Shown one piece after another: positions 8,606 through 55,435 of a stretch of 64,000 nucleotides of DNA. Positions within the stretch are counted from its first letter, which is position 1; the number at the start of each line of letters is the position of its first letter. Made by a program: the position numbers and the translations under genes. The notes under the pieces are model-generated. The model worked only from the letters and a program-made list of their open reading frames with translations, did not search any database and was not told where the DNA came from. This DNA comes from Hemileia vastatrix (taxonomy: Eukaryota; Basidiomycota; Pucciniomycetes; Pucciniales; Zaghouaniaceae), in the NCBI GenBank assembly GCA_030280995.1, contig JASXTE010000017.1:21319998-21383997 (forward strand), given 5' to 3'.

Positions 8606-10783
8606 TGTAGACAATCCTATAGTGCTAGCTATAGGCCTTGACCAAGGGAGTTGGAGAAAAACCAGAGAGAAAATCCCCTGTCCCTTTAGAAAAATAAGTG
8701 AGATTTACCTGCTACAGTAAATTGGTTCCTGTTTTGCTAAAGACCCTTTTCCAATACACTTGACTGCTTGATGAGCCAAGAAAGTAGTCACCATACAGAC
8801 TACCAGACCAAAGAACTGAAATCTAGACCAATGTCCACACCAGAGACAGCAAAGATACTTGATGTAGGATGCAAATCCACACCAGAGACAGCAATAATAC
8901 TTGCTATAGCTTGCAAGACTATAACAGAGAAAACAGTTGCCAAAGTTAAGTTAAATGAAGAACTCAATTTCAACAAACACAGCCAATTGTGGCCAGAAAA
9001 CAGAGAAAACTGAGTGAGGAAAAATGATATCACCTCCGGATAGTTGTATGATGATTAAGGTTGCCCCAAAATGTCTTATTCACTATATACACACAGACCA
9101 CTATCAATTAGCCCATGTGCACCCACCAATCTGGCGCCTGTACCCGCTAAATTGCATAAAAAACCCTCCAAAAGCGCTCCCCAACCTTCTAAAACAGAGG
9201 TGGGCGGGCCGCCTGACGTTGGAGGTGCCGCCTGAAGCGGAACACCCTCCCTGAAGCGAGAGAATCACTAAAAACACCCAATCTACTTAGAAAAACTAAC
9301 TACAACTACTAAAACCTTTAAAACACAGAATTTCACTATAACAACTTTGAGACATGAAATATAGAGAAAAATTATTTCTATTCAATGGTACTAGGCACTT
9401 AACCTTAAGACTTAAGGTTAGCCCGTAAAACACGATGTTGTCTTCCAACATTGGCAGGGGCCTTAGTTGTGTGATTTGGCGCTGTTTGTGCATGTCTTAA
9501 TTGACATCTGTTAAGGAATTAGGTATTTTTCTGGTTTTAATCCGTAGATATTGGGTCTGCGGGTATGTGGGTACTATCATTGGATAGCCCTGGTTTTTCT
9601 CTATATTTTATGTCCTGTAGACATTTTTCATATTCTAAGTTTTAAGGGGTCATTTCCTCATTTTTCATTTATAAAAGATTGCTGTTTAATTTGGTTTTTT
9701 GTGTTTTACGGGCTAACCTTAAGTCTTAGGGTTAAATGCTTAGTACCATTGGATAGAGCTAATTTTTCTCTATATTTCATGTCCCAATGTTGTTATAGTG
9801 AAATTGCGTGTTTTAAAGTTGTAGCTAGTTTTTCTAAGTAGATTAGTTGTTTTTATTGGTTTTCTGGCTTCAGGGAGGCCGGGCCGCTACAGGCGGCATC
9901 TCAGACGTCGGGCGGCCCGCCCGCCTCTGTTTTAGGATGTTGGGAAGCGCTCCAGGAGGGTTTTTTATGCAATTTGGCGGGTACAGGCTCCAGATTGGTG
10001 GGTGTGCATGGGCTCTTTGATAGTGGTCTATGTGTATACAGTGAATAAGACAGTTTGGGGCAATCTTAATCATCATAAAACTATCCGGAGGTGATATCAT
10101 TGTTCCTCACTCAATTTTCACTGTTTTCTGGCCACAATTGGCTGTGTTTGTTGCAAGTAAGTTCTTCATCTAACTTAACTTTGGCAACTGTTTTCTCTGT
10201 TATGGTCTTGCAAGCTATAGCAAGTATTATTGCTGTCTCTGGTGTGGATTTGCAGCCTACATCAAGTATCTTTGCTGTCTCTGGTGTGGACTTTGTTCTA
10301 CATTTCAGTTCTTGGTCTGGTAGTCTATCTGGGGACTACTTTCTTGGCTCATCAAGCAGTCAAGTGTGTTGAAAAGGAGCTTTAGCAAAACAGGAACCAA
10401 CTTACTTTAGCAAGTAAATCTCACTCTATTTTTCTAAAGGGACACGGGATTTTCTCTCTGGGTTTTCTCCAACTCCCTTGGTCAAGGCCTATAGCTAGTA
10501 CTATATGATTGTCTACAACGAAAAACAATATTAAATAGCTATCTTTTTAAATGAAAAATGAGGAAATGACACCTTAAAACCTAGAATATGAAAAATGTCT
10601 ACAAGACATAAAATATAGAGAAAAACCGGGGCTATCCAATGATAGTACCCACATACCCGCAGACCCAATATCTACGGAATAAATCCAGAAAAATACCTAA
10701 TTCCTTAACAAATGTCAATTAAGACATGCATAAACAACGCCAAATCATGCAACAAAGGCCCCTGCCAATTTTGGAAGACCACA
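8606..10783 (-). repeat. 3' LTR of element D, interrupted by a solo LTR
   Basis: 8606-9435 plus 10522-10783 (1092 bp) match the 5' LTR at 42114-43205 end to end. A GC-rich block at 9201-9240 holds several CGG/CCG triplets in otherwise AT-rich sequence. Confidence 0.85.
9436..10517 (+). repeat. Solo LTR of the D family, inverted inside the D 3' LTR
   Basis: The sequence TGTTGTCTTCC...TTGTCTACA is the reverse complement of a D-type LTR (1082 bp), flanked by a perfect 4-bp duplication ACGA (9432-9435 and 10518-10521). No internal sequence is present, so it is a product of LTR-LTR recombination. The empty site is visible in the other D LTR near 42937. Confidence 0.9.
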
Positions 10784-10831: not shown

Positions 10832-11472
10832 ATGTTCAACCTTCTTCCTAAACATGCCTCTGAAATAGGTCCTTGCCAATACTGCATTGACAATAATCTA
10901 ATCTGTGTCATGACACCACCTGTCCATCCATACAGAACGTCCTGCAATGTCTGCCAATCTAGAAAGAAGCCCTGCTACAGACCTGGTCCATTATCTTCTG
11001 CAACAGATTCACCTCCACCTCAACCTTGTCCATCTTCTACCAGCACCAAAAGATCTAGGCTATCCATCCTGATACCCAGATTAATCAAAAAGCTTTACCC
11101 TTCCCAGAAGAGTCCCACAACCCATAGAACAACAAGTTCCACCATCCCTGGTCCACCTGATGGTAAAGAACTTTCATTTCTTCCTTCAAATTTAAAACTG
11201 ATGACTTCTCAGTTCCTTCATCTTCTGATAGTGATGATAACAATGTAGGATCCATTGCACCACCAACACCAAACCATGTGCCCACCATCAAGGCCAAGTT
11301 TCAGCAACACACATCTCAACAGAAACAACTTCTGCTTCACTACTTCCAATCCACTCCTGCTAGAGATCCACAGGACATTGATAACGGAAGACACCTCATT
11401 CACCAGTTCAAGGCTAATTCTGAACACTTCATTTCATCTCCTGATTCTCTCTGTCATTCCACTAGTACTTGA
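10832..11472 (+). CDS. Antisense Zn2Cys6-type protein 1 of element D (2 exons, intact)
   Basis: I chose ATG 10832, which has a strong ACCACCATG context; an upstream in-frame ATG exists at 10802. Exon 1 is 10832-11162, the intron is 11163-11212 (GTAAAG, branch-like CTGATGAC, TCAG, 50 nt, phase 1) and exon 2 is 11213-11472. The product is 196 aa without stops. Cysteines C15, C18, C25, C38, C41 and C48 give C-x2-C-x6-C-x12-C-x2-C-x6-C. A basic STSTKRSR stretch follows. The C-terminal region (LLLHYFQSTPA, then R-x-L-x3-F-x4-E-x-F) aligns with the B and E proteins (MLAYFQETPA). It is probably a nuclear DNA-binding protein; targets are unknown. Confidence 0.8.
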
Positions 11473-12095
11473 GTTTGATTCAGAAAAGAAAAATTGACCA
11501 CACCCTCTATAGGATGTAACCACAAAAAACCACCAGTTTAAGTCTTGGGGGACCATCCTCATTTTATAGTCTTGGGGGACTCAAAAACCCTCAGTTTAAA
11601 GTCTTGGGGGACTCAAAAACCTAAATCATAGACCCAGAACCAGAGATCAACCACATTAAGACACAGAGAAAAAACTAAAATTCTGGGGTAATTGTGAATA
11701 GAGCTTCCAGCCCATCAATTACCCCCAAACTTGCCTTTGCTAAATTTGGAGGCTCCCCCTGTGGATACCCTCCACCAATCTTTCAAACCAACTCCATCAA
11801 CAACAAAACACATTCCTCAGTTTATAGTCTTGGGGGACTAACAAAGTGTTCAGTTTAAAGTCTTGACAGACTAAGCTTGAAACCATAAAATTTCAGTTTA
11901 AAGTCTTGATGGACTAACAGAAATTCCAGTTTAGAGTCATAGAGGACTTCCAGAATCTTGCGTAAATTTGACCCAGCCAATTTGATGCAATAAACCCACA
12001 GCTAGACTTGTGGAGCATCTGCCTTCACTTCATCTTCTACTCATCACTGACAAAATTCTTCTATTATCATTTTCATCATCTTTACACCACAGATC
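11473..12095 (-). repeat. Spacer between the two antisense genes of D, with mini-hairpins and a 10-bp-stem hairpin
   Basis: No coding frame. On the minus strand there are at least seven copies of the AGTC/GGTC-6 nt-GACT-TTAAACTG motif (around 11530-11950). One hairpin has arms GGGGTAATTG (11685-11694) and CAATTACCCC (11716-11725), matching the post-pol hairpins of B and E. The whole block resembles a duplicate of the post-pol spacer. Confidence 0.7.
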
Positions 12096-12343
12096 ATGTC
12101 TGGATCCCCTGATGTTGACTCCTCTACTCTTCCTTGCTTCACTGCTCCCAGGGACTATGCCTGCAAACAGGGCATCCACATGTGCAGACCTAGCACATTC
12201 ACTCTTCCAACTCCTGAAGCAAAATTCTACAACAGGGCTTGTGATTCTTGTTAGTCTGAAAAGAAGAAATGTGACAGAGATGCCCACTATACTATTCCTC
12301 CGCCTTCTCCTTCTCACAAATACATCTCCAGATCCCCTACCAG

Positions 12344-13474
12344 TGTGGTATCCTAAAGTTAAGTACGGCACCTAAGTATGTAAATGGAGTTATTACGGTG
12401 TGCAGGATTGGAGTTATTATTTTTTATAAAAAGGGTTTTATTTAATTTATTGGAGTTTAAAATATGAAGAAATTGGTCACGAGCAAATGCCTACACAAAT
12501 ACAATTTATTTTACGGAGAAAACTTATTTTTACGGTTTGAAAATTTATAAGTATCAAGTCGAGTCACTCAAGAACCTTGGGAAATTTTCCCAGAATTTTT
12601 ACTATTTTTCTTATATTTTTAAATGAATTTTAAAGTTTTATAGAAATATTTACGTTTTCAAAAACTACTTAACTTTAATGAATTTTCACGGGGTAATTAG
12701 AGCTGCGCAGACTACGAAAATTAGTTTGGTAGGTAAAGAGGAAGTAGCTCTATTATGTGTAATTTTTCTAGATTTTTTATTATGGTTTTAAGGTTCTAAA
12801 TTGAGTCCGGAAGTCCGGACGGACTCCGTTTCGACTCCGTACGGACTCCGTACGGACTCCGCTTTGACTCCGTACGGGCTCCGGATTGACTCTGGAAGAG
12901 CTCTGGAGGGGAAAACTTAGGCACGTGACTAGGAATACTTAAGCGCTTCTCAAACTCGAAATTGAGAGGGGGGACACATCATACAGCTTAATCATTAACC
13001 ACCACAGTCTCATTTTTTATTACTCAACAAATTAAAATAACTTGTAATACCCTTATAACATTATTATTTTTACATAACATTTTAGAAATACAATTCAACA
13101 GTTTAAATAACACTTCATACAGGGTATCTTTAGAAAGGTCTTCATCTCTGGGACTTGATTATTGCTGTCTCATAAAAATTCAAAATATTATAAAAACATA
13201 AAAGTCAATCTTTTCAGATCTTTCACTGGTACACCTTAATTGTTGTTATCAGTATTTCTTTATCAACAGCCACTTTCATTAAATCTCAATAAGCGTTAAT
13301 TATTTTAGAGTTTCATTATTTTCATCAATCAGATCTAAGTAGATTGGTTAGCTTAGTGATTTAGAACACCTACTTTGTTATTTTTATTGGAAGGACGGGG
13401 TTTTCAGCTAAATCCATATATCTCCTCCGGATTCTGCTTACAGCAAGGCGACTGTAAGAGTTTACCTTACCATA
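12344..13474 (+). repeat. 5' LTR of element B
   Basis: 1131 bp, matching 24360-25479 (1120 bp). The only length difference is one extra 11-bp GACTCCG-type unit in the triplet array. E carries the same LTR type in reverse orientation. Confidence 0.92.
12804..12893 (+). promoter_or_regulatory. CGG/CCG triplet array in the LTR
   Basis: A GC-rich island in an AT-rich LTR. An 11-bp unit (CGGACTCCGTA and variants) is repeated, producing CGG-N3-CCG and CCGTACGG inverted triplets plus CCGGA copies. Zn2Cys6 proteins of the GAL4 class characteristically bind paired CGG triplets, so this is a candidate binding region for the element's own antisense-encoded protein. That link is inference. Equivalents lie at 24819-24900, 46863-46910 and 57376-57453. 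Confidence 0.5.
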
Positions 13475-16571: not shown

Positions 16572-16850
16572 CCTCCAGCAAGAGGGTAAACTGCAATTAT
16601 CTCATCAAAATCAAATAAAAAATCTCAGTATAAGTAAAACACAAAAAAATAATTTTTGTGAAAATTCATTTCCGGACCTCCAGCAAGAGGTTAAACTGCA
16701 ATTATCTCCTTCTATTTTGGGCCTCCAGCAAGAGGTTAAACTGCAATTAACTCCTCAAAACTCAATAAAAAATCTCAGTATAATTAAAACACAAAAAAAT
16801 AATTTTTGTGAAAATTAAATTCCGGACCTCCAGCAAGAGGTTAAACTGCC
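16572..16850 (+). repeat. Mini-hairpin repeats translated inside pol
   Basis: Four copies of CCTC-CAGCAA-GAGG-KTAAACTGC start at 16572, 16677, 16722 and 16827 and encode LQQEVKLQ-type peptides, separated by a repeated KNLS-x3-KTQKNNFCEN segment. Two diverged copies lie at about 18816 and 18871. E has about seven copies at 54595-55075, showing copy-number change inside a coding region. Confidence 0.8.
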
Positions 16851-19800
16851 AACTTTCTTTACGGGTGATTTACTGTTGGATAAGGGAAGCAAAGGTGTTG
16901 GAAAAACTGTTTATAAATTAGACGAGGGAAAGGAGAAAAGGGTAAAATTTAAAAATGAAATAAAATATTTTTCTAATTTTTCTTATTCTGATTCTGGCGA
17001 TGAAGAAGATTCATTTGATGAAAGTTTTAATGGCGATGTTTTACCTCAAGTTTATTCAGATGTGGACGCAGCTAAATATAAGAAGGTAGCAAATAAAGTT
17101 CGACCTATTAATGAACCGCTACCTGCTGAATTAAATCCACCTTTGAGAAGACCAAGGTTATCAAGAGATCCTTATGAAAGTCCCTTGGTAAAGAATCCGC
17201 CTGAATTTTCTGAGACGTCAAGAATCACTTTTGAGAGACTGGGTGTTGTTAATTTTGGACCTGATGGTTGGTTGTCTGGAGAAGAGAAGAAGTTGTTGTT
17301 GGATGTGATGGTCAAGCAAGAGAAGGCCATTGCTTTTGTAGAAGAGGAGAGGGGTGTGTTGAAGCATTCCTATGGGGAGCCTTACAAGATTCCTGTGGTA
17401 TGTCATGAACCGTGGCAGCAGAAACCGATTCCTATTCCAGCTGCATTAAAAGAAGCTTATATCGAAGTTGTCAGAGAACGGATACGCACTGGACTTTATG
17501 AGCAATCAACGTCAAGTTATTCTAGTCCGTTATTTTGTATCAAGAAACCGAATGGCAAGCTTAGAGTTGTTCATGATCTTAGGGAATTAAATAGCGTTAC
17601 AATAAAGGATGCTGGGATACCACCTAGTGCTGAGGAGTTTGTTGAAGCGTTTGCAGGGAGAGTGTGCTATGGTTTGGGAGATATTATGGGTGGATATGAT
17701 GAGAGAGAGTTACATCCGGACTCAAGGCCTCTCACTACATTCGATACGCCACTTGGACGTTTACAGTTAACAAGATTACCTCAAGGAGCAACAAATTTGG
17801 TTGCAGTTTATCAAGCTCAGATGGCTTGGATCCTTCAAGATGAAATTCCACAATATGCTGGAATCTTTATAGATGATGGAGGAATTAAGGGACCAACAAC
17901 CGACTATGATAACCAGGTGTTGGAAGAGAATCCCGGGATACGCAAATTCATTTGGGAGTTTGAAATTACTTTAGAAAGAATCTTGTTTCGAATTGAAGAG
18001 GCTGGTTTAACTATTTCAGGTTCAAAATTTTCATGTTGTGTGCCAGCCTTAGAAATATTAGGCCATGTGGTATGTAGAGAGGGTAGGATTATGTCCAAGA
18101 AGAAAGTTAACAAAATTCAGTCCTGGCCAAGACCCAAGAATACGACCAAAGTTAGAGGGTTTTTAGGCATTTGCGTATATGTTAGAATGTTTATCAAGGA
18201 CTTTTCTTCATTGGCAGCTCCATTGAGACGGTTAACGAGAAAGGATGCAGACTGGGAGTGGGATGAAGAGTGTGAGAAGGCGTTTGTGAAGTTGAAGGAG
18301 GTTTTGGGGAAGGATTTAGTCCTGCACAAGTTGGATTATGAAAAAGAAGCTGGCAGAATTTATTTAGCAGTCGATTCAAGTCAGGTTGCAGCTGGGGCGG
18401 TTTTGTCTCAGATGGATAAAGCTGGTTACATCAGGCCAGTTAGGTATGAATCTGTAGTATTTACTGAGGTCGAATCAAGATATTCTCAACCGAAATTGGA
18501 ATTATGTGGTGTGGCAAAAATACTGAAGAAACTTCAGCATATTTTGTGGGGGCAACATTTTGAGTTGCAAGTGGATGCGAAATCGTTAATCCAGATGATC
18601 AATTCCCCAAGTTTACCAAACGCACCCATGACGAGATGGGTAGCTTTTATTCAACATTTTTTGTTTGATTTAGTTCATAAGCCTGGCAAAACTTTCACTA
18701 TGCCAGATGGTTTATCAAGGAGACCACCCACTGAAGAAGATTCAGACTCAGAAGAGTTCAATGAAGATATACCTATTATCAAAGCCAGCACTAAAGGAGC
18801 TGAAGACTTTCCATACCTCCCCCATGAGGTTAAACTGGCAGGACTATTATGTTTAGATTATGGTGATGATGTCCTCCACCAAGAGGATAAACTGGAAAAT
18901 AGTTTTTATGTTAATAAAGGTGTAGATAAATTCGGCAGAGAGGAGGTAGAAGAAGATGTGGTGTATGTAGAGGAAAATGGATTGGTAGTGTGGGATAGTA
19001 GTAAATTAAGGAATGGTGTATATGTTGGAGAATTAGAGAACTTAAATAAAAAGGTGGATAAAGAGAAAGAGGTATTTTCAAATACGGTTTTGGAAGGATC
19101 CAAAGGTTCAGAAGAAAAACGTCGACATCGCTTGATTAAAGATTTATTTAGGGGTCAACGATTATTGGCTCATTCATGTGCAGGTGATATTGGTGATAGA
19201 GAAGTCCCTATTGATGTTATATTAATCAATTTTCAAGATGAAGTCTGGGGTCAGACTGGTTTTTATTTTTTGTTAGTCAAATATTTGTTGACTTTAGAGA
19301 GGCCAGAAGATTGTGAAGACGATGAATGGGTGGCTATCAAGAGGAAGTCATCTACGTTTTACCTATCCGGTCGACGTTTAATGAGGAGGAGGTATCCAAA
19401 TCCTCAAGTAGTTATAACTCAACAGAAGGGGCAAGAATTAGTTTTGAAATCACTGCATGAAGATCTCGGGCATAGAGGCGTTGGAGAAACGTTTAGAAGA
19501 ATTTCTGATCGATTTTGGTGGCCTGGCATGAAGATGGCTGTTAAACAGTGGGTTCAGTCATGCGAAGAATGTCAAAGACGAAGTTATTTAAGGCCAAAAG
19601 AACCTGGACGCGCGACCGGTGAATATACGCTCTTTGGGAGAGTTAGTTTAGATGCCGTTCATATAAAAGAGGGACGGTATAAATATTTAATTGTGGCCAG
19701 AGATGATTTATCTGGTTGGGTAGAGGCAGAGCCTCTTATTAATTTAACTGCCAAAAATGTGGCAGAATTTTTTTTGAATAATTGGGTATATAGGTATGGG

Positions 19801-20515
19801 GTGATGAAGTTGGTGACGGTAGATGGAGGTCCTGAATTTGGGACAGAGTTTAAAGAGGCCGTATTGAAAGTTGGATCAAAGGTTAGGGTAGCAACCCCAT
19901 ATTATCCTGAAGCTGAAGGCATGGTTGAAAGAGGGCATCAAGTTATTAAGGATGCTTTAGTTAAAATGTGTGGGACAAGTGCTGAAAAGTGGAGGCACTA
20001 TTTACCTTTAGTTTTATTTGCTGATCGAATCACTGCCAAAAGGACGACCGGATTTTCACCTTATGAACTTGTTTTTGGACAGAAAGCAGTTTTACCGGTG
20101 GATTTAGAAGCTGAATCATATCTTGGAGTTGACTGGGACACGGTCAAAACTACTGAAGAATTATTGTGTGCAAGAATGATGCAGCTAGAAAAGAAAGAAG
20201 AATATTTAGAAAAGGCATATTTGCGGATGATGAAGATCCGAAATCAATCAGTCAAATATTGGGATGAGCGGTTGGCACATCGATTAAGGAAACCTTTGAA
20301 CCCAGGTGATATGGTCCTGGTGTATAATAGGAGTTTGGAAAGTCAATGGGGAAAGATGTTTGCAGATAGGTGGAATGGACCGTATAAAATCAAGGAGCAA
20401 GTTTCCGGCGGTTCATATGTGCTAGAAGAGTTGGATGGAGTAGTATTAAAGAAGAGGGTAGCGGCCGATCAAGTGAAACGGTTCTATCCTAGAGGCACCA
20501 GGAGTGCCGAAGTCT

Positions 20516-20634
20516 TCCTCCGCAATGAGGATAAACTATGAAATTTCTTAAATTTTATCAACTCTGAAATGAGGATAAACTACAATTTTAAATGAAATTT
20601 ATCAAATTTTATACCTCCGCAACGAGTATAAACT
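20516..20634 (+). repeat. Mini-hairpins at the end of pol
   Basis: Three copies of CCTC-6 nt-GAGG-ATAAACTA or variants, near 20518, 20564 and 20613. The first encodes the RNEDKL end of pol and contains its TGA. E has five copies in the matching region 50690-50900, and D and A have one or two. Confidence 0.75.
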
Positions 20635-20894: not shown

Positions 20895-21474
20895 ATAATG
20901 TTCGTTTCCAAAATTTTCCCTGTTTCTAGTTGAATCCTGGCTTTGTCTTTTAATTTTAGGAAGTCCACTAAGACTATAAACTGGAACGAATCAAGAGACA
21001 CTGCTCTCAAGGCCAGATTTAAGATTCTTTTTATTTTATTTTGTTTTTGATTTTTTTTATGTTAGATTGTGATTTCTTTTCTTTAATATATATTATGAAT
21101 TATTGTAAAGGTGATGCTCACTGGTGGTCTCTAATCATTTTTATAAATTGGAGGGAGCCCACCCAGTGATCATCATTATAAAAATTATCTTCTAAAAACT
21201 TTCATTTATTTTATTTTATTTTCAATTTCTCAAAATTGTGTAACCACATCAAGTTGCACTTGGATGTGGGTATGATGTCGAGGGTACGGCTCATCAAATG
21301 GCCGGGGGGCATCTTTTAAAATTTTACTTTTTAAATTTTTTTTTTATTATTATTACTTTTTTTTATCTTTCTTTTCACATTCGTTTATCTTTCTTTAAAA
21401 ATTAAATTTTAACTTTTATTTCAAAAATATCTTTTCTAAAATCTTTTATTTTAAATTAAAAACAAAATTAAAAA
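20895..21474 (+). other. Post-pol spacer of B with a second conserved hairpin
   Basis: No gene. Contains one mini-hairpin (AGTC-CACTAA-GACT-ATAAACTGG near 20969), a block TTGGAGGGAGCCCACCCAGT near 21150 shared with E and D, and an inverted repeat CCACATC...GATGTGG at 21244-21269. The latter is conserved at 50057-50082 (E) and at 34421-34446 and 34609-34633 (D). Confidence 0.6.
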
Positions 21475-22075
21475 ATAAAAATAAAAATAAAAATAAAAAT
21501 AAAAATAAAAATAAAAATAAAAATAAAAATAAAAATAAAAATAAAAATAAAAATAAAAATAAAAATAAAAATAAAAATAAAAATAAAAATAAAAATAAAA
21601 ATAAAAATAAAAATAAAAATAAAAATAAAAATAAAAATAAAAATAAAAATAAAAATAAAAATAAAAATAAAAATAAAAATAAAAATAAAAATAAAAATAA
21701 AAATAAAAATAAAAATAAAAATAAAAATAAAAATAAAAATAAAAATAAAAATAAAAATAAAAATAAAAATAAAAATAAAAATAAAAATAAAAATAAAAAT
21801 AAAAATAAAAATAAAAATAAAAATAAAAATAAAAATAAAAATAAAAATAAAAATAAAAATAAAAATAAAAATAAAAATAAAAATAAAAATAAAAATAAAA
21901 ATAAAAATAAAAATAAAAATAAAAATAAAAATAAAAATAAAAATAAAAATAAAAATGAAAATAAAAATAAAAATAAAAATAAAAATAAAAATAAAAATAA
22001 AAATAAAAATAAAAATAAAAATAAAAATAAAAATAAAATAAAATAAAATAAAAATAAAATAAAATATTAAAATAA
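21475..22075 (+). repeat. Hexanucleotide microsatellite (TAAAAA)n
   Basis: About 90 units of T plus five A in near-perfect phase from about 21475 to 22030, with one A to G interruption near 21956, then irregular TAAAA units. Element E has only degenerate T-rich sequence at the same place (49680-49900). Confidence 0.95.
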
Positions 22076-22189
22076 AAAAAAAATAAATTAGTTAAATCAA
22101 AATTATTATATTTCTCAGTTATATTTTTTTAGTTTTATTCATTTAGTTTAGACAGGAAACAGGGTCTAGGGGAACTCAATACCTATGGG

Positions 22190-22965
22190 ATTTTACTTCA
22201 AGACATCTGTTAGTCCTCCAAGACTTTAAACTGGCTACAGTTCAAGACGTTCTTTAAGGTTTTTTTACACGTATTTTGGATCTGTTAGTCCTCCAAGACT
22301 TTAAACTGGCTAATTTTCAAGATTTTCATTAAAGATTTTATATTGGAACTGTTAGTCCTTCAAGACTTTAAACTGAATTTCAAGGATGTTCAAGATTTTA
22401 TGGATATTTTTGGAGACAATTTTTTTTTTATATAAATCAAATGTTAGGTCCATCAAGACCTTAAACTGTAGTGTTATCAAATGTTAGGTCCACCAAGACC
22501 TTAAACTGGACTGTTATCAAGCTGTTGGGTCCACCATGACCTTAAACTGGATTTCTTATCGATTAAATGTTTGGTCCACCATGACTTTAAACTGGTAGTT
22601 CATTAATTGTTTAGTCCACTATGACTTTAAACTGGAAAATTAATATCTGCAGGATAATTCAACATTCATTGGACCACTATGGCCTTATACTGGATTACTT
22701 GTCGATCAAATGTTTGGTCCACTATGACATTAAACTGGATTATCAAATTTATTCAATCTTTGGTCAAGCCTAGGCCTTACTTAGGAATATATCAAGTTAT
22801 TTATGCACTTAAACGATCTTTGGTCCACCAAGACCATAAACTGGCAATCAATTATATGTTTGGTCTACCAAGACTTTAAACTGGAATGTCAATCTTGTTT
22901 GGATAACTCAACTCAATCTTTTAATTTATCACTGTCCACTAAGACTCTAAACTAGTTATTCAACT
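22190..22965 (+). repeat. Array of mini-hairpin motifs in the 3' spacer of B
   Basis: About 14 copies spaced 35-75 bp. Consensus is RGTC-CWCCAA-GACY-TTAAACTGG; the 4-bp stem is GGTC/GACC in some copies and AGTC/GACT in others, with G-T intermediates. Starts include 22212, 22287, 22353, 22447, 22487, 22528, 22573, 22613, 22716, 22822 and 22862. Mirror-image array in E at 48775-49570. Confidence 0.85.
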
Positions 22966-23543: not shown

Positions 23544-24236
23544 TTAGAAAAGATAATTTCTTTGAAATTGTTCAACATCATTATCAAAGCTTTGCATTAA
23601 AATTCTTCTTTTCATGAGGTCTTCATGGTTATTAGCTGGAGTTTCTTGAAAATAGGCCAGCATTTTTTGTTTCAACTCATTAGTAAAGTCAAGAAAAAGA
23701 TAGCGATGAAAATTTGGGTAATGATTGATATAGTCCGTCTTCACTCTACCAACATCATCAGTGTTGGTTATTTCGACAGCTAGAAGTTCAAATATGTTAT
23801 TAAGTCATAGGTTTAGTCAATTTTGATTAAAAGTTTTTTTTAGTAAGATAATTAGGGTCTTACATTTAGAGCCAGGAAACATAGTCTCAGCAAAGTTAGT
23901 TAGGGGTACTGGCATTATAGGATTAGGATCTTGTGAAGGCAAAATTAGGCCGGGATCCGTTGATGAAGATTGAACTTTTGAAGCTGTTTTTGTTCTTATT
24001 CGTTTTAAGAAGACAGGAATTTTGGATCGCTTTTTAGAAGTTGAGGGATCAGGGAGAGCTGCTGGTCCTAAATATACGTTTGTTTTAGAAGGAACTATTG
24101 GCCGGTTGCATTTGACTTTTTTCACATGGCATAAGTCGCAAGCTGTTCTGCCAGGAAGATTAGGGTTGGACATTAAACAAGGTACCTGGTATCGAGCGCA
24201 GAGTTCACATGGAGCGACAAGTTCTTTGGAAGACAT
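23544..24236 (-). CDS. Antisense Zn2Cys6-type protein of element B (2 exons, intact)
   Basis: Exon 1 is 24236-23864, the intron 23863-23780 (84 nt, GTAAGA...CTAG, phase 1) and exon 2 23779-23544; the product is 202 aa without stops. Cysteines C10, C13, C20, C33, C36 and C43 form C-x2-C-x6-C-x12-C-x2-C-x6-C. The second half (ACDLCHVKKVKCNRP) looks like the basic half of GAL4-type clusters. Next come a Pro/Ser linker with a basic STSKKRSK stretch and a C-terminal region (NELKQKMLAYFQETPA to VEQF) shared with D gene 1. It starts 124 bp from the 3' LTR, transcribed against gag-pol. It is more intact than the element's own gag and pol. A DNA-binding or regulatory role is inferred. Confidence 0.85.
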
Positions 24237-24359: not shown

Positions 24360-25479
24360 TGTGGTAGCCTAAAGTTTAGTACGGCACCTAAGTATGTAAA
24401 TGGAGTTATTACGGTGTGCAGGATTGGAGTTATTATTTTTTATAAAAAGGGTTTTATTTAATTTATTGGAGTTTAAAATATGAAGAAATTGGTCACGAGC
24501 AAATGCCTACACAAATACAATTTATTTTACGGAGAAAACTTATTTTTACGGTTTGAAAATTTATAAGTATCAAGTCGAGTCACTCAAGAACCTTGGGAAA
24601 TTTTCCCAGAATTTTTACTATTTTTCTTATATTTTTAAATGAATTTTAAAGTTTTATAGAAATATTTACGTTTTCAAAAATTACTTAACTTTGATGAATT
24701 TTCACGGGGTAATTAGAGCTGCGCAGACTACGAAAATTAGTTTCGTAGGTAAAGGGGAAGTAGCTCTATTATGTGTAATTTTTCTAGATTTTTTATTATG
24801 GTTTTAAGGTTCTAAATTGAGTCCGGAAGTCCGGACGGACTCCGTTTCGACTCCGTACGGACTCCGTACGGACTCCGTACGGGCTCCGGATTGACTCTGG
24901 AAGAGCTCTGGAGGGGAAAACTTAGGCACGTGACTAGGAATACTTAAGCGCTTCTCAAACTCGAAATTGAGAGGGGGGACAAATCATACAGCTTAATCAT
25001 TAACCACCACAGTCTCATTTTTTATTACTCAACAAATTAAAATAACTTGTAATACCCTTATAACATTATTATTTTTACATAACATTTTAGAAATACAATT
25101 CAACAGTTTAAATAACACTTCATACAGGGTATCTTTAGAAAGGTCTTCATCTCTGGGACTTGATTATTGCTGTCTCATAAAAATTCAAAATATTATAAAA
25201 ACATAAAAGTCAATCTTTTCAGATCTTTCACTGGTACACCTTAATTGTTGTTATCAGTATTTCTTTATCAACAGCCACTTTCATCAAATCTCAATAAGCG
25301 TTAATTATTTTAGAGTTTCATTATTTTTATCAATCAGATCTAAGTAGATTGGTTAGCTTAGTGATTTAGAACACCTACTTTGTTATTTTTATTGGAAGGA
25401 CGGGGTTTTCAGCTAAATCCATATATCTCCTCCGGATTCTGCTTACAGCAAGGCGACTGTAAGAGTTTACCTTACCATA
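24360..25479 (+). repeat. 3' LTR of element B
   Basis: 1120 bp, TGTGGTA...ACCATA. Its CGG/CCG triplet array is at 24819-24900, one 11-bp unit shorter than in the 5' LTR. The D reading frame resumes right after the CCAG duplication at 25480-25483. Confidence 0.92.
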
Positions 25480-25922
25480 CCAGGTCTCCAGAACTTGGTC
25501 CATCCTCTCCCTCTCTATCTTCAGCTCTTTCCAGAAGATTCAGAAGCTCAGCTTCCCGCACTCTTCCCAAAAGACCAGCCTTAGCTTCTCAAGAAACTGC
25601 TTTCATCACTGATAAATTAGCTCCAAAAGCTTTGAAATCAACCCCTAGGCTTCTAAACCGCGTCCAGGCCGCCCGGCCGACATCAGGCGGCCTGCCCCCC
25701 TCACCAAACAGTGAAAATCAGGGCCAAAACCTCCAAAAACGGCTTGAAAACAGCCAAATTCATCCAGAAAATGACAACAACTCAACACAACTATCTCATA
25801 CTTCTCCCAGAGAAATGCAATCAACCCTTTCAAAGTCCAAAAGCGCCAAAATTTCCCAAATTTCTAAGAGACCTGCCAAAGGACCCCAGGAAGAAAACAT
25901 AACACCCAGCACTGCACCAAGA

Positions 25923-26696
25923 TGTCACTGGACGACCTACGCACAAGGTCGAGGATGTTCCTGTAAGTGAGATGAGGTATCTTAGAAACTTCTTCGAAGC
26001 ACAGAGGAATGATTCGAGGAAATGATTCGAAGGTTACTCGAAGTAATAGATATAGGTTCGAGGTTCGTTCGAGAAGAATTATAAACTAGTTCCAAGGTAA
26101 TGATAATTCTTAAAATCTCACGAAGGGTTGGAAACTCAATAATCAAAGATTTAGGATTTAGAAATGAATATTGAGAAAGTAAAAGAAAGATGCAATAACA
26201 ATGATTTTAACTTTTAAGGATTTTCCACTATTAATGTAAATATGATATTATAATTTAATTCTAAGGAATATCGAACCAAATACCCAACTCCTTTTATATC
26301 CTTTTTTCCTCCTCGCATTGACCTCCCTTCCATCGCAGCATTCCCATTCCATTGACTATAACTAAAATACACTTAGACCCTCTCCACTAAATATCCGTCC
26401 ATGCTCAATTTACCCCTTTTAATTAATTAACAAAACTTTAATGAAAAAACTACTACTATACTATTTCGTTGATCCTAGCGCTGTGCGTCGCTTATTGAAA
26501 AGGACTAAGGTACCCTATTGGGAGATTGACTAATTTAGATTTAGAGTTTAGGCTAGCGCAGTTAAATAGTAAGTACACAAAGGAAAATTGCAGTTGCTAT
26601 GGAGAATTGCTTTCTGCGCCTTGAGTATAGATTTAGGACTCGATATTATTGATTTATTGAGTTAATTTCGCCTCAAGTGTCACGTGGCGCGTGACA
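25923..26696 (-). repeat. 3' LTR of element C
   Basis: 774 bp, ending on the plus strand in GTCACGTGGCGCGTGACA, an imperfect palindrome. It is immediately followed by the promoter-like region of the antisense gene. No clear polypurine tract is visible beside it. Confidence 0.9.
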
Positions 26697-26806: not shown

Positions 26807-27396
26807 ATGAACTGCCCTACTCCCACACCCACGCCTCCACACCCTAAAGCAGATGGGTGAATAATCACACGACAGTTTTCACAGACTTGCATGGCTTGTG
26901 AAAGCATGGAATATTTCTGTGTCGAAAGTACGGCGACTCGAGGCCCTCGCCAGAAATGCCAGTTTTGCCGTTGGCGACGAGTGGCGTGCGATGCGTTGAC
27001 GAAGAACGCGGAAATCGAAAAACAATTTACAAAAACTAAGTTTTGGGTAGTTCTGAAGACCAAAGAGGTGGTCGAAGACATTTGGGATGTCTCGATCGAA
27101 GATGAACAATTGGTGGGGGAAAATGATAAGGAGTTGAACAATGAGATCTCAACCTGGGTAACCCAGGCCACGAGTTAGAAGCGAGGTGTCGAGGAAGAGG
27201 TTGATGAATTGGTGGAGGAGGATGAGGATGAAGTCTCTGTTCCAGGGCGGGCACCCAAGAAACGACGGGTGGTCATCGAGGACGATGAGGAAGAGAGAGA
27301 GGTAGAGGTCGAAGTGGCGCCCAGGTTATTTCTAGAGCCTGACCCCATCTTCGAGGTAAGTTTTATTTGTTTGTTTTAAGGATGAAGTTACTGATG

Positions 27397-27431
<35 letters not shown>

Positions 27432-27574
27432 CATCGAATAACCTTGAAGAGCCGTTTGCGGAGCCTGCACTGGTTATACCAACTGAGGCAAACCCTCCAG
27501 CCACGGAAGTAGTTGAAGAGCCCGAAGACACCCTGGACCAGGTGTGGTTGAAGAAACCTCGTCAAGGTCGATGA
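26807..27574 (+). pseudogene. Antisense Zn2Cys6-type gene of element C (2 exons, two stops)
   Basis: One frame of 230 codons: exon 1 is 26807-27355, the intron 27356-27430 (GTAAGT, a run of about 30 T, TAG; phase 0) and exon 2 27431-27574. Stops TGA 26858 and TAG 27176 lie in frame. The cluster starting at codon 26888 reads C-x2-C-x6-C-x12-C-x2-C-x6-C, with the basic half second (KCQFCRWRRVAC). A long acidic segment follows, broken by a PKKRRV nuclear-localisation-like motif at about 27253-27270. This acidic plus NLS design resembles a transcriptional activator. The intron phase and C-terminus differ from the A/B/D proteins, suggesting a distinct lineage. Confidence 0.65.
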
Positions 27575-28690
27575 GTAAGGTTCGCGGAAGAACTATGTGG
27601 GGAGGTCGACACTATTATTGACGCTGCTTCCTTTGACGTGGCAGAGGAGCTATTGGAGATGGGAGAGGTGGTTCAGGTAGGAGAGGAGGAGGTATTTGAG
27701 AAATGCAGGAAGAAAATAAGGGTAGTTTTGGAGAAAATGAAAAGATTGGTTTGAGAGAAGTTAAAAGAAAAGATTTGAAAAGAAAAGGAGATGTAAAGAA
27801 GTAGAGAAAAAAATTGTATTTTAATTTTATTTTATTTTTATTTTATTTTATTATTAGTATTATTTTTTTTCATTGTAGGTGAATGTTGTTAATTTTATAA
27901 GATTTGAGAGAGAGAGAAAAAGAAGTTTTAAATAAAAAATTTTAGAATTTGAAAGAGGAATTTTAAAGAAAGGAAAAAAGGTTGTTTTAATTGAAGGAAG
28001 TTTTAGTGTTTTTTTTTTTTAAAAAGAAAAATTTTTATATAAGAAAAGAGAGAGAAAAAAGAAACGGTTTTGTGATTGAGATGAATTTGTTAAATTGAGG
28101 ATTTTGAAATTTTTTTTTTTTTTTTTTTTTAAGAAATTTTAGTTGAAAAGAGAGGAAGAAGAAAGAAAAGAAAAAAAAACAGAATTTAGAATTTAAGAGG
28201 GTTTGAAAAGAAGAATTATTTGTTTCGAAGAATTATTATAGGGAGATTTAGAGGTTGAAGTTAAGTTCGAGGAAATGGTCGTGTCGTACAAGATTTGATT
28301 ATTCGAAGGAAAGAAAGTTTTTTTTAAAAGAGAGAATAAATTTTTTGGAAGAGAAGTTTTTTAAAGAGAATTTTAAATTTAAGAAAAGAATGTATTTAAA
28401 GAATTGAAAAGAAAAGAAAGAAAATATTTAGAGAGATTTATTTTTTTATTTTATTATTTATGTTTTATTCTATTTATTTTATTTTATTTAATTTTAATTT
28501 TGATTTTATTTTATTTTATTTTATTGTATTTAATTTTAATTTTGATTTTAATTTCAGTTGGTTTTGGAGGAAATTTTATAGAAAGAAAAGAAGAGAGAAA
28601 GAAGAAAACAAGGCTAAAAAAAAATTTAAGAGGTGTTTTAGATTTTAAAGAAAGAAAGAAAAAGAGAAGAAAATTTTAAATAAAGAAATT
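27575..28690. other. Purine-rich spacer of element C
   Basis: No credible gene; open frames here are low-complexity Lys/Glu or Phe/Leu/Ile runs. The plus strand is dominated by A and G, with homopolymer T runs near 28100 and TTTTATTT stretches near 28440-28550. It separates the convergent antisense gene from the end of pol. Confidence 0.6.
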
Positions 28691-31600
28691 TTAAGGTTTT
28701 GGTTTTAAAGGATATTTCGAATAAAAAGATTTTAGGAGTTCAGGAGCGTTAGAAACATTGATGGCTGGTTCCCAGGATGTTTTGTCTGAGTCATTGAGGA
28801 AGCCTTCCCATTCCACGAGGTATTGAAGTTTCCCCTTGTGTATTCTTGAATCAAGGATACGACTTACTTCCCACTCTAGACGATCTTCTACTTCGACCGG
28901 TTCCAGAGGGGGTTGGATCTTGCCCGGGTATATTTCTCGAGCCAGTTCCAGGAGAGATACATGGAAAACAGGGTGAATCGCCTGCCATTTAGGAGGTAAC
29001 TTGAGTCGAAATGCAGTTTTAGAGACTTCAGAGTCAATTTTGAATGGTCCCAAGCGCTTTTCAGCCAGTTTCTTTGATGGTCTTGTTGTTCGGATGTTTC
29101 GTGCATCGAGCCATACTTTGTCGCCTGGTTTAAAGGAAGGAGCAGATTGTCGATGTTTGTCAGCCTGTTCCTTGTATCTTTGAATCGCTGATTACAAATT
29201 TGTTTTAAGTTCTTCTTGGAGTCGTGATATAGTTCGAAGATAGTGTTCCGCAGGATGATTAGTTCCTACATGGATTGAGTTGAATCGAGGATGTCGTCCA
29301 TAAATGGTTTCAAAGGGAGATTGTCGTGTCGAAGAATGAGTCGAGTTATTATAAGCAAATTCGGCCAATGGTAGCCATGTGGTCCAATCGTCTTGTTGGT
29401 AACTGACATACATTCGAAGATATTGTTCGAGGATTTGGTTAACTCTTTCTGTTTGCCCATCAGTTTCAGGATGATAGGCCGTGGAGAGATTCCTCGTGAT
29501 ATTGAGTTGTCGACACAGTTGGGTCCAGAATGTGAATACAAACAATGAGCCTCTATCTGAAATAATATCATTTGGTAAGCCGTGTTTAGAAAATACATAT
29601 TCTAGAAACAATTTTGACAAATCTTCTGCTGTAGCAGTAGTAGTGGTTTTAATAAAAATAGACATTTTTGAGAATCTATCTACTATTACTAATATAGCAT
29701 CAAAATCATTAGAAATAGGAAGTTGAGAAATGAAATACATCGATAAAGATTCCCAAGGTTTAGAGGGAATAGGAAGTGGTTGAAGCAACCCATGCTTCCG
29801 GTGACGGGGAGCCTTATTCCTATTACATTCGTAACAAGCTTTTATATAGGCCTTGATTTCCTTGGTCATACCTGGCCAGAAGAAATCCCTCACTATTAAC
29901 TGGTAGGTTTTATCAACCCCAAAATGACCAGCTAACGGAAAATCATGTTGACTGTTGAAAATCCATAATTTTATCTCATTGTTGTCGGGTATGACTACTC
30001 TACCTTCGAAGACTAATAGACCTGATTCAATACTAAATCTTTTGGCCCCTTGCTTCGAGAGTATTTTGTCTTTTAACCCTAAACAATAATCATCCTTTGA
30101 CTGAGCTTGGAGGATGTTGGATAGTGGATTTCGAAAAGATTGAATTGTCATCGAATTAAGTTGATGAGTCGTCAACATTGATTCATTGAAGATTGATTGC
30201 ACATTTGCTGGTTTCTTGTTAGCAAATGCGTCCCCCCGCTGTGGGTAAATGTCGTCCCGACGTGACAAGATATCTGGGACAATGCAGTTTTTTCCTGGGC
30301 GATAGGAAATAGAGAAAGAAAATTCAGACAAAAATTCAGCCCACCTGGCTTGACGCCTGGTTAACACTTTAGAAGACATGAAGTATTTCAAAGCATTATG
30401 ATCTGTTAAAATTTGGAAAGGACTATCTAGGCTGAGAAGAAAAGAACGCCATTTTTTAAGACAATGGATAATAGCTAAAAGCTCTTTGTCATGAATTTCA
30501 TAATTTAATTCCGCGGCTATGAGTTTGCGTGACTCAAAAGCAACAGGATGAAACAAATTTGTTTCAGGATTTAATTGGGAGATGACCCCTGCAATAGCAT
30601 AATCGCTCGCATCTGTCTCAACTATTGTCGAGGCAGAAGGGTCAAAATGCCAAAGAATTGGGGCTGTGGTGAACGCCGTTTTTAGTGCTTCGAATTCCTT
30701 TCGTGCTGTAGAAGTAAAAACAAAAGGAATATCTTTTCTAAGAAGAGAAGTAAGATTGGAAATAGTTTTAGAGTAATCTTCAATAAATCTTCTATAGAAG
30801 TTTGCAAAACCCAAAAATCCTTGCAGTGATTTAGTGTTTTTGGGCTCAGGCCATTCCAGTATTTTTTGGATTTTTTTATCATCCATGACTAAACCGTCAG
30901 TGGACAACGTAAAACCCAAAAAATCAATTGATTTGAGGTGGAATTCGCATTTATTATGCTTGGCGTAGAGACCATGATCTTGAAGACGATTTAGGACCTG
31001 TCGAACATGATGAATACTTTCATCCAGTGTTTTCGAGAATATTAAAATATCATCTAAATAGACGACTACAAATTGTTCAACAACATCCTAAAAGATATCA
31101 TTAACAAAAGTTTGAAAAGTTGAAGGTGCGTTACATAATCCAAAAGGCATAACTAAATATTCAAAACTACCAAATCTAGTGTGCATTGCAGTCAGTGGTT
31201 CATGACCTTCCGCAATGCGAATAAGATTGTAAGCGCCTCTAAGATCAATTTTAGAAAAGAAATTAGCACCATTGAAAAGGGTAAGAAGTAATGAAATAGG
31301 AGGAACAGGATATGCATTTTTCTTCGTGAATGTGTTGAGCTTTCTATAGTCAACACACAACCTAAGACTACCGTCCTTCTTTTTTATAAAGAGGACAGGA
31401 GAGCCGGTTGGAGATTTACTGGCTCTGATGAAACCTTTGGCTACATTCTCTGCAATGTAGTCTCGAAGAACTTGAGATTCGTCCTTCGATAAAGAATAGA
31501 CAGGACCTGCCGGAGGTACTGGGCCTATTAACTCTATTTGATGGTCGTAGGGTTGATGAGGTGGTAACTTATCGGCCTTGCGGATTGAGAAAACATCAAG

Positions 31601-32323
31601 GAAATCGTGGTAGATTTCCGGTAGAGTTGATTTGATGGCTTCAACGTTTATTTGGTCGTCCTCTTCATCTTCGAGAGAATCTGTCGAGGGGATACCTGTA
31701 TTGAGAGAGCATAATTCGATTACTTCAAGGCAATTTAAATCCTCTTCGAGTGAAGTCATCAAGCTAGAAGGGTTAGCCAATTGCTCATTAAAAGAAGGTA
31801 CAGATGCTTGCAAGTCATCTGGCTGAGACTTGTCCTCTAGCAGGACGTTGTCAGGCGGTTTGTTTAACTCCCTATTGACCTGCATTGAAGAATCAGAAAT
31901 ATACTTAGAGCGTGGGGTGATCAATCCCCTAGTCCAATCAATTTCGGGATTCCAATTCGTTAAAAAGTCATGGCCAAGAATGGTATTGTCCATCTTTGGG
32001 GCTTCCAAGACTGATAATTCCCACTCAAAGGGGGGCAAATTCGGAAAGTTGAAAACCCATAAAACCTTCTTACTTACCCAATATTTGGGTTCCTCTTATT
32101 CGACCAAATAGATGGGAGTTGGATCGATATCTGTAAATGTTAGTTGAAGCTTCTCGTCAAAAGATAAACTAACAAAAGAAATTGAAGCTCCAGAGTCTAT
32201 AAGACACCTGAAGGGTATATCCTCCTTAAAAAGAATGAATCTCAAGCGGTTTAAGGCAACTCCAGTCCTTAAGACATGGAGGTTCTGTGCACAGGGAGAG
32301 ATAAGATAGTTTGCTTTGCACAC
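28691..32323 (-). pseudogene. pol: Element C protease-RT-RNase H-integrase-chromodomain polyprotein
   Basis: A single minus-strand frame with stops at about 32096 (TAA), 31088 (TAG) and 29192 (TAA). The protease active site is D-S-G (LIDSGASISFVS). RT carries KKDGSLRLCVDYRKLN, FGLCNAPSTFQ and YLDD at 31049-31060. RNase H shows ETDASDYAIAGV. Integrase has an HHCC domain (GHFGVDKTY to CYECNR), ISDRG and ETDGQTERVNQ, but the first catalytic Asp is Tyr (SMYFISQLP). GPFKI and then a C-terminal chromodomain (EWEVSRILDSR, LQYLVEWEGF, SWEPAINV) place it among chromoviruses. Confidence 0.9.
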
Positions 32324-32531: not shown

Positions 32532-32535
32532 GCCA

Positions 32536-33309
32536 TGTCACCGGACGACCTACGCATAAGGTCAAGGATGTTCCTGTAAGTGAGATGAGGTATTTTAGAA
32601 ACTTCTTCGAAGCACAGAGGAATGATTCGAGGAAATGATTCGAAGGTTACTCGAAGTAATAGCTATAGGTTCGAGGTTCGTTCGAGAAGAATTATAAACT
32701 AGTTCCAAGGTAATGATAATTCTTAAAATCTCACGAAGGGTTGGAAACTCAATAATCAAAGATTTAGGATTTAGAAATGAATATTTAGAAAGTAAAAGAA
32801 AGATGCAATAACAGAGATTTTAACTTTTAAGGATTTTCCACTATTAATGTAAATATGATATTATAATTTAATTCTAAGGAATATCGAACCAAATACCCAA
32901 CTCCTTTTATATCCTTTGTTCCTCCTCGCATTGACCTCCCTTCCATCGCAGCATTCCCATTCCATTGACTATTACTAAAATACACTTAGACCCTCTCCAC
33001 TAAATATCCATCCATGCTCAATTTACCCCTTTTAATTAATTAACAAAACTTTAATGAAAAAACTACTACTATACTATTTCGTTGATCCTAGCGCTGTGCG
33101 TCGCTTATTGAAAAGGACTAAGGTACCCTATTGGGAGATTGACTAATTTAGATTTAGAGTTTAGGCTAGCGCAGTTAAATAGTAAGTACACAAAGGAAAA
33201 TTGCAGTTGCTATGGAGAATTGCTTTCTGCGCTTCGAGTATAGATTTAGGACTCGATATTATTGATTTATTGAGTTAATTTTGCCTCGAGTGTCACGTGG
33301 CGCGTGGCA
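32536..33309 (-). repeat. 5' LTR of element C
   Basis: 774 bp, same length as the 3' LTR. Its inner edge abuts the patch instead of a normal PBS, so this copy could not prime reverse transcription again. Confidence 0.9.
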
Positions 33310-33923
33310 CAAGACCACAACTTTGTCTCCAATCAAGGCAACACAACTACACCTATCCTCTGTCAGCCAACTATTCTTCTGACAGTTCCATTCCCTCAAA
33401 ACCTCCATCCAGAAGAGATCAATCTGCTTCCAAATCACCGTCTCCTGCTCCATCTTTCAACCATCCTGGTACTCCATCACCAGTACCTCCTCCAACTGAA
33501 CCAAGCAAAAATATTAACAACAACAATCCTGCTGCTATAACTAGGCCCCAGGAAGATCAGCATCCCAGTTCACCTACTCAGGATCCTTCAGAAAAAAACC
33601 AAGAGAATCCGTATCTTTATTTGATTGATCCTCCTACTATGACCATGCCAAATTCTTCAGAAGTCCAAATTACGGCTGCTTACAGATTCGATGAGCTTCC
33701 AATCTGTAAGTACCACATTAATTCATCTAATTTCTTCCACAAAAGTAATTACTGATCCAATTCTTCTTGTCTAGTTGTCACCTCTCCTCCTGAAACTACT
33801 ATTGGAGTTGGCCAACCTCTAGAAACTTCTTTGACCCTGGATTATGGAGACATGAAAAAAACACCTAAGCACCATGTGTTCCAACATGCTGAAAGCCTTC
33901 GCCCTCCATGGATCTTTGAATGA

Positions 33924-47366: not shown

Positions 47367-47488
47367 TCTCCCTCCAATCGAGAATGTCCCCATTCTTAAA
47401 ACTTTGCATAAGTGGTCGAACACAATATTCATCTTTAACCTTCAACCACCATCTTCTTTAATCAACTATAAAATTCATCTTCATCAAT

Positions 47489-48774: not shown

Positions 48775-49570
48775 GTTTAGAGTCTTAGTGGACAGTGATA
48801 AATTAAAAGATTGAATTGAGTTATCCAAACAAGATTGACATTCCAGTTTAAAGTCTTGGTGGACCAAACATATAATCGATTGCCAGTTTATGGTCTTGGT
48901 GGACCAAAGATCGTTTAGGTGCATAAATAACTTGAAATATTCCTAAACAAGGCCTAGGCTTGACCAAAGATTGAATAAATTTGATAATCCAGTTTAATGT
49001 CATAGTGGACCAAACATTTGATCGACAAGTAATCCAGTATAAGGCCATAGTGGTCCAATGAATGTTGAATTATCCTGCAGATATTAATTTTCCAGTTTAA
49101 AGTCATAGTGGACTAAACAATGAATGAACTACCAGTTTAAAGTCATGGTGGACCAAACATTTAATCGATAAGAAATCCAGTTTAAGGTCATGGTGGACCC
49201 AACACTTGATAATAGTCCAGTTTAAGGTCTTGGTGGACCTAACATTTGATTGATAAAAAAAAATTTAAAAAATCCATCTCCAAGAATATCCATAAAATCT
49301 TGAACATCCTTGAAATTCAGTTTAAAGTCTTGAAGGACTAACAGCTCCAATATAAAATCTTTAATGACAGTCTTGAAAATTAGCCAGTTTAAAGTCTTGG
49401 AGGACTAACAGCTCCATAATTTGTATAAAACCCTTAAGGAAAGTCTTGAACAGTAGCCAGTTTAAAGTCTTGGAGGACTAACAGATCCAAAATACGTGTA
49501 AAAAAAACCTTAAAGAACGTCTTGAACAGTAGACAGTTTAAAGTCTTGGAGGACTAACAGCTGTCTTGAA
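48775..49570 (-). repeat. Array of mini-hairpin motifs in the 3' spacer of E
   Basis: About 15 copies on the minus strand of RGTC-6 nt-GACY-TTAAACTGG, in the same order as in B, with both GGTC/GACC and AGTC/GACT stems. Between it and pol lie degenerate T-rich sequence (49680-49900), the CCACATC/GATGTGG hairpin (50057-50082) and the GGGGTAATTG hairpin (50428-50468). Confidence 0.8.
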
Positions 49571-55379: not shown

Positions 55380-55435
55380 AACAATAAAAAAAAATTTCAG
55401 CCGAGTTTAGGTAGTTTATCCTCATTTCGGAGGAA

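Follow-up and report, generated by a model that had tools for sequence, protein, structure and literature searches.

Some large fungal genomes consist in good part of retrotransposons, and it has long been asked how these elements stay active. The locus analysed here, a window of 64,000 nucleotides from Hemileia vastatrix, raises that question in a particular form: what does a Gypsy element gain, if anything, from a small, intron-containing gene with six cysteines on the strand opposite to pol? The reading that we consider probable is that the antisense genes, one or two per family, would encode small spliced proteins of the element's own making, each beginning with a cysteine-rich, zinc-cluster-like domain, that serve as nuclear DNA-binding regulators of the family that carries them.

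LTR pairs and pol fragments revealed the window to be a nest of LTR retrotransposons, with B on the forward strand and E, C, D and A on the reverse strand (Table 1). D hosts the insertions of B and C, and A is cut off by the left end of the window. Paired LTRs are present for B, C, D and E. Comparison of LTRs and pol showed B and E to be a single family (pol 94.8% identical), and the window holds five elements of four Gypsy families. Pfam and PDB matches in the order RT, RNase H, integrase were found on B, C and pieces of A and D, and Ty3 was the nearest solved sequence to B pol. Piece-by-piece comparison gave A and D pol an identity of 62.9-78.7% with that of B. C pol is distant from B, with 28% identity over RT and 23% over integrase; a chromodomain in other family C copies places C in the chromodomain lineage, and Pfam listed none in B pol. 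In a list of 120 pol relatives, most of the named sequences nearest B came from Puccinia striiformis and P. coronata, followed by Phenoliferia and Austropuccinia, and two relatives were labelled as bacterial MAG. Judged by these relatives, the host would probably be a rust fungus. Neither B pol nor its alignment had confirmed relatives in viral_contigs or genome_contigs, and Rfam gave no match within the window at gathering scores. Possible target-site repeats flank C (CAAGA on both sides) and also B (ACCAG) if its LTR ends in ...CCAT; the flanks of E differ. As minor features, an inverted D-family LTR copy is embedded in the D 3' LTR at about 9436-10517, and a 6-bp tandem repeat (AAAATA) of about 630 bp occupies 21453-22087 of the + strand, between B pol and the antisense gene.

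Table 1. Elements, antisense genes and candidate target arrays in the window.
Feature	Position	Strand	Remarks
B LTR pair	5' 12344-13474, 3' 24360-25479	+	LTR pairing
E LTR pair	3' 46278-47368, partner 56792-57915	-	LTR pairing
C LTR pair	3' 25922-26696, partner 32535-33309	-	LTR pairing
D LTR pair	3' 8606-10783, partner 42114-43205	-	LTR pairing
B pol (RT, RNase H, integrase)	16876..20541	+	sense; Pfam/PDB matches
C pol pieces (RVT_1, RNase H, integrase)	29192..32038	-	Pfam matches
Six-Cys match, A	497-604	+	six-frame scan
Six-Cys match, D	10874-10975	+	six-frame scan
Six-Cys match, C	26888-26989	+	six-frame scan
Six-Cys match, E	47516-47617	+	six-frame scan
Six-Cys match, B	24108-24209	-	six-frame scan
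B antisense gene	exon 1 24236-23864, intron 23863-23780 (GT-AG), exon 2 23779-23544	-	202 aa; six-Cys domain in exon 1
E antisense gene (B family)	exons 47489-47861, 47946-48163	+	stop 6 codons early
D1 antisense gene	exons 10832-11162, 11213-11472	+	196 aa
A antisense gene	exons 461-908, 962-1260	+	248 aa
C antisense gene	exon 1 26807-27355, intron 27356-27430, exon 2 27431-27778	+	298 codons in longest copies
D2 (second antisense Cys-rich gene of D), first piece	12096..12343	+	internal stop; cut by B insertion
D2, middle piece	25480..25921	+	between B and C insertions; pieces read separately, not joined
D2, last piece	33310..33923	+	likely intron 33706-33774; end as in the earlier note
Tandem array of the 11-bp palindrome TCCGTACGGAC (CCG-N2-CGG / CGG-N3-CCG)	24823..24897	+	in B 3' LTR; candidate zinc-cluster target
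YAGTTTA-motif array of B	22210..22883 (approximate ends)	-	3' of antisense gene
YAGTTTA-motif array of E	48884..49558 (approximate ends)	+	
YAGTTTA-motif array of D	11592..11951 (approximate ends)	+	between D1 and D2
YAGTTTA motif sites	16591-16846, 18835, 18892, 20536, 20981, 22231-22881	-	
YAGTTTA motif sites	11594-11929, 34915, 35176, 39042, 39108, 48886-49536	+	
YAGTTTA motif sites, continued	50341, 50684-50882, 52595, 54596-55414	+	

Scanned in six frames with a permissive six-cysteine pattern, the window returned exactly five matches, all antisense to pol, in agreement with an earlier note on this DNA that had described five such frames at these places. The cysteines are spaced C-x2-C-x6-C-x12-C-x2-C-x6-C in B, C, E and the first gene of D (D1), with a linker of x14 in A. 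The note had set the genes between pol and the 3' LTR. LTR pairs and pol confirmed this for B, C, D and E, whereas for A only the orientation opposite to pol can be seen, its LTR lying beyond the window and no pair being seen. In B, the antisense ATG and the start of the 3' LTR are 124 bp apart, the LTR following the PPT GGAGGGAGGA. The genes are indeed small and intron-containing; the GT-AG introns measure 84 bp in B, 50 bp in D1 and 53 bp in A, each in phase 1, and the intron of the window C copy measures 75 bp, in phase 0. A second-exon motif, ..YFQ.TPA.., is common to B and D1. The coordinates first proposed hold overall, except that the C gene had been ended at 27574: its full frame would end at 27778, and the window copy is broken by in-frame stops. 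Nor are all the genes complete, E ending early and D2 carrying a stop and being cut by the B and C insertions. On the sense strand across the five genes the longest stop-to-stop frame is only 125 codons, and a sense-strand ORF as the true gene was therefore dropped.

D2 is also where the proposed cysteine pattern fails; it is present in A, B, C, D1 and E. The first half of D2 departs from C-x2-C-x6-C, as does that of A0, a further antisense zinc-cluster gene of family A that lies on the LTR side, outside the window. Open frames of up to 435 codons were found for D2 (three copies read; 150 places scored), and at least 10 same-strand D1-D2 pairs, 1.0-2.8 kb apart, were counted by eye in the scored tables. 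For A0, one of three copies, itself with an exon-1 stop, yielded a complete three-exon model. The A0 start lies about 150 bp from a sequence resembling the B/D LTR edge together with the PPT complement, and of the three A copies that were followed further outward, two showed such an edge and complement beyond A0.

We then turned to other copies in the genome (747.6 Mb, 791 contigs searched). First-look candidates numbered 9065 for B, 5942 for C, 9184 for D1, 5698 for A, 5231 for D2 and 1563 for A0, totals that may overlap and are not verified copy numbers; 150 were scored per gene, and A0 matched at its 150 scored places. The LTR adjoins the gene in 30/30 B loci (window B and E included) and in 30/30 C loci (window copy included), confirming the position that the earlier note had expected other copies to conserve. 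In B, the LTR stands 123-126 bp from the gene, with LTR edge and PPT complement in all 30 loci. In C the gap is 90-113 bp in 29 loci and widens to 374 bp in L052; among the 29, L051 has a gene match without its first 30 nt. Two of the C LTRs are partial (L045 and L059). For D1, the PPT complement was present in 13/17 rows. By eye, four D2 places were opposite in strand to a neighbouring pol match and four C genes to a neighbouring chromodomain. The probe P0042, used for a third lineage, gave no sequence to classify, and four of its matches were beside D2 places.

The spliced frame is complete in 28 of the 30 B loci (window B and E included), and 13/17 D1 rows and 9/19 A rows are intact. The final stop is reached in 14 of the 30 C loci, the window copy being among the 30. 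All 30 B rows possess the GT-AG intron. The C intron varies from 54 to 75 bp, and its length is not a multiple of three in 20 of 30 loci. In ten C rows exon 1 is interrupted by an earlier stop; the remaining 20 keep the spliced frame open into exon 2, and 14 of these have introns that are not a multiple of three. Of the sequence evidence for a genuine intron, this retention of the frame across introns of variable length is the strongest. A TATA-like box precedes the antisense ATG in 22/30 B loci (at -22), 22/30 C loci (in 21 at -98 to -102) and 19/19 A rows (chance level not estimated).

The earlier note had regarded the gene as a standard part of every Gypsy element. It is a fixed part of the families in the window; genome-wide the claim is too strong. 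Eight chromodomain loci were viewed (L104-L113, of which L112 and L113 extend L106 and L107; L104 and L105 only to about 1.5 kb). Six, taken from the top list partly for their long open frames, were followed for about 3 kb or more downstream. Two belong to family C, with gene and LTR in place, and the remaining four, which may be incomplete elements, have no zinc-cluster frame. Matches to the six-Cys pattern in L104 are a low-complexity CSS repeat. As a separate observation, three chromodomain matches of the same orientation lie about 7.1 kb apart (G000 C26: 34334265, 34341360, 34348456), a spacing that suggests a tandem array of one element.

To ask whether the frames are maintained as coding sequence, we compared copies chosen by protein similarity to the queries; exon-1 pN/pS is consequently biased towards conservation, and exon 2 lies outside the queries. 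For C (30 loci), pN/pS was 0.10 over the stretch used as query, 0.19 over the remainder of exon 1 and 0.26 over exon 2, against 0.58-2.14 in shifted frames. D1 (17 rows) gave 0.47/0.49 against 0.80-1.79. Values of 0.27 for exon 1 and 0.28 for exon 2 were obtained in B (30 loci; no shifted-frame control). A (19 rows, the stretch L095 being excluded as too short) gave 0.73/0.86, similar to its shifted frames at 0.62-1.26. Variable sites at the first, second and third codon positions numbered 72, 63 and 135 in C (third-position excess p=3.7e-8), 10, 9 and 24 in B (p=0.0074) and 51, 44 and 73 in D1 (p=0.017), with no excess in A (p=0.79); variable sites are not independent, so these p values are rough. 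Within exon 2 alone, the excess persisted in C (p=0.047) and was absent in B (p=0.61) and D1 (p=0.48). The B, C and D1 genes appear to be under purifying selection, and A looks neutral.

These data bear upon two of the alternatives. The first is that the region is conserved non-coding sequence, an antisense RNA or cis elements, that is open by chance. Antisense non-coding RNA from fungal transposons has been reported (PMC10648671). Moreover, total divergence is not consistently lower in exons than in their neighbours in B and D1: in B the exons (0.010/0.009) are matched in conservation by the intron (0.006) and 3' flank (0.007), with 0.028 in the 5' flank, and in D1 the exons diverge by 0.058/0.045, the intron by 0.061 and the 3' flank by 0.031. 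The corresponding values for C are 0.049-0.071 in the exon parts, 0.068 in the intron and 0.106 in the 5' flank. Set against this, the shifted-frame controls of C and D1, the third-position excess in C, B and D1 and the frame kept across C introns disfavour a non-coding origin, though not for A, and we find the explanation scarcely credible. The second alternative, which we judge very improbable, holds that the gene is a captured host gene carried as a passenger without function for the element. The introns, a host-like domain and the apparent neutrality of family A would accord with it; selection in B, C and D1 would not, and nor would the occurrence of six distinct antisense cysteine-rich genes in the same region of four families and two lineages.

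Pfam scans with PF00172 (Zn_clus; gathering cut-off 21 bits) placed B (23.0/25.1) and E (23.9) above the cut-off and A (13.9), D1 (14.8/16.1), D2 (13.4) and the window C piece (11.9) below it. A piece of A0 with one wrong letter scored 26.2 bits, and its exons 2-3 alone 16.0; for two intact C copies no Zn_clus was listed. Wherever the match could be read, the basic-half-first order of PF00172 was not found. Instead, the halves of the domain are swapped: the second half fits the start of the profile in B, E, the C piece, D2 and A0, and in A and D1 it is the first half that fits, at profile positions 17-19 to 34-35. The same swap was seen against Lac9 and Leu3, at E 0.8-0.9. On the basis of sequence, the domain resembles the Gal4/Lac9/Leu3 zinc clusters with its halves exchanged. 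Although all six cysteines of the C domain align with those of the A/B/D domain, hhalign gave a probability of 7 (E 0.005), and the two domains may or may not be homologous. The structure predicted for B contains two short helices and is weakly zinc-cluster-like, its structure matches being weak (E 0.9-9); the C model was unusable. Pfam scans of the antisense frames listed no other transcription-factor domain and, at E up to 1, no TRP28 (PF04195). In the protein database, no relatives were found for B exon 1 (4 candidates) or the B/D1/A alignment (2173 candidates), searches that reach only relatives with exact shared 5-residue words and so do not imply absence elsewhere. Compared with the fungal Zn2Cys6 factors Gal4, Lac9, Leu3 and Hap1, the antisense proteins share the six cysteines, a basic CDxCRxxKxKC-like half and, in the B model, the two short helices; they differ in the swapped halves, in the linker of 12-14 residues and in being encoded by a retrotransposon. 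We infer that the protein would be a transcription factor.

CGG triplets are the half-sites of Gal4-type factors. Besides the array in the B 3' LTR, TCCGTACGGAC arrays occur at 12814-12892 and 57374-57443 in B/E LTRs, and each of the 30 B/E-family loci contains CGG-N3-CCG sites in variable number (2-9 per copy). The C and D LTRs and the examined part of A have no CGG-palindrome arrays, CGG/CCG being below shuffles there. With single-base shuffles as the control only the B/E LTR has such sites, and CGG targets in all families were dropped. A, B, D and E carry a second motif on their antisense strand, consisting of YAGTTTA, one nucleotide (N), a 4-nt stem, a 6-nt loop and a 4-nt stem. Its arrays come after the antisense genes. 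All four stem pairs are formed in 47 of 65 antisense sites (E 21, B 16, D 9, A 1; B and E are related, and their counts are not independent), as against 0/18 sense sites in elements and 0/5 sites outside elements. Paired changes in the stem are of three types, CCTC/GAGG, AGTC/GACT and GGTC/GACC. Other loop lengths gave few paired sites, save for 19 at offset 7/loop 8, which are the same pairing, one wider. The inverted repeat could be bound by protein or could fold as an RNA hairpin. Two sets of arrays, CGG in the B/E LTR and inverted repeats in A, B, D and E, qualify as candidate targets of the antisense protein.

An element-encoded protein with arrays of this kind invites comparison with VANC, the product of VANDAL, a plant DNA transposon. 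VANC is not known to be a zinc-cluster protein. By analogy, the antisense protein might bind repeats in its own element and strip repressive chromatin or methylation, acting as an anti-silencing factor rather than a classical activator. The short motif bound by VANC21 is arrayed in a single orientation in non-coding stretches of its element, often as tandem repeats that differ among copies (PMC5735166), a description that the exclusively antisense paired YAGTTTA repeats and the 2-9 sites of the LTR array recall. Yet the arrays described here are candidate targets only, several copies of the YAGTTTA motif lie within pol, and VANC differs in both the type of element and the protein. We consider anti-silencing of this type rather doubtful.

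In the reading that we favour, a promoter located at the 3' LTR edge or close to it would drive transcription of the antisense gene. Only the sense RNA is copied back into DNA during retrotransposition, which is why an intron would survive in a gene of antisense orientation; such placement would explain the persistence of introns in an element that passes through RNA. The protein would enter the nucleus, bind DNA and act in trans on its own family, either by activating the LTR promoter or by countering silencing, with the CGG-palindrome array (B/E LTR) and the oriented inverted-repeat arrays (A, B, D, E) as its candidate targets. The tails of A0 and C are acidic (net -20 across exon 3 of A0, net -23 across residues 84-183 of C), as would fit activation. 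A more specific version can be offered tentatively, namely a self-targeting system whereby the half-swapped zinc-cluster protein recognises inverted-repeat arrays in the LTR or internal region of its own element and trans-activates or de-silences its family. Protein and array would co-diverge, and the layout would have arisen twice or been exchanged between the chromodomain lineage (C) and the distant A, B, D and E.

The opposite effect is also conceivable. HBZ of HTLV-1, a human retrovirus, is spliced, is of the bZIP type and has a repressor role. A comparable negative regulator would use antisense transcription together with the protein to dampen sense expression and control copy number. Placement near the 3' LTR is as in the antisense genes of deltaretroviruses, and HBZ, compared here by description only, is likewise the antisense regulator gene of an LTR element (mentioned in PMC11963269). 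Two weak arguments count against this alternative, which seems unlikely to us: the thousands of first-look candidates per gene suggest good amplification, and the acidic tails of A0 and C are better suited to activation than to repression.

The earlier note knew of no established class of retrotransposon with an antisense gene of this kind. In part this does not stand, as antisense ORFs for predicted DNA-binding proteins are known in plants. In Retand Ty3/Gypsy elements an antisense TRP28 ORF lies between pol and the 3' LTR in 97% of clusters; a DNA-binding domain is predicted for the antisense ORFs and tandem repeats often occur in the same region (PMC11963269). B, C, D and E share that location. 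Retand, however, carries TRP28 (PF04195) and is a single non-chromovirus lineage of flowering plants (PMC11963269), whereas the fungal elements encode a zinc cluster in two lineages, in spliced genes and sometimes two per element. What is new is that the antisense gene has this domain and introns, that its host is a fungus and that it occurs in two distant Gypsy lineages (C and B, as above). Extra ORFs have been noted in plant and planarian Gypsy elements (PMC9289625), and the main text of a survey of fungal LTR elements contains none of the terms zinc, opposite, Zn_clus or transcription factor (PMC3248453). A search of open-access papers found no report of a fungal antisense zinc-cluster gene.

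A DNA-binding-like protein that is encoded by the element and under selection, together with its candidate arrays, would make the question of retrotransposon activity testable, and would provide a fungal counterpart to the plant Retand and retroviral antisense genes. Furthermore, catalogues of fungal genes may count transposon genes among the zinc-cluster transcription factors of the host.

Elsewhere in the window, arrays of an 82-bp repeat occupy 61544-62247 and 62750-63435, with a palindrome-like ATCTTTGGCCAAAGAT in two consensus units.
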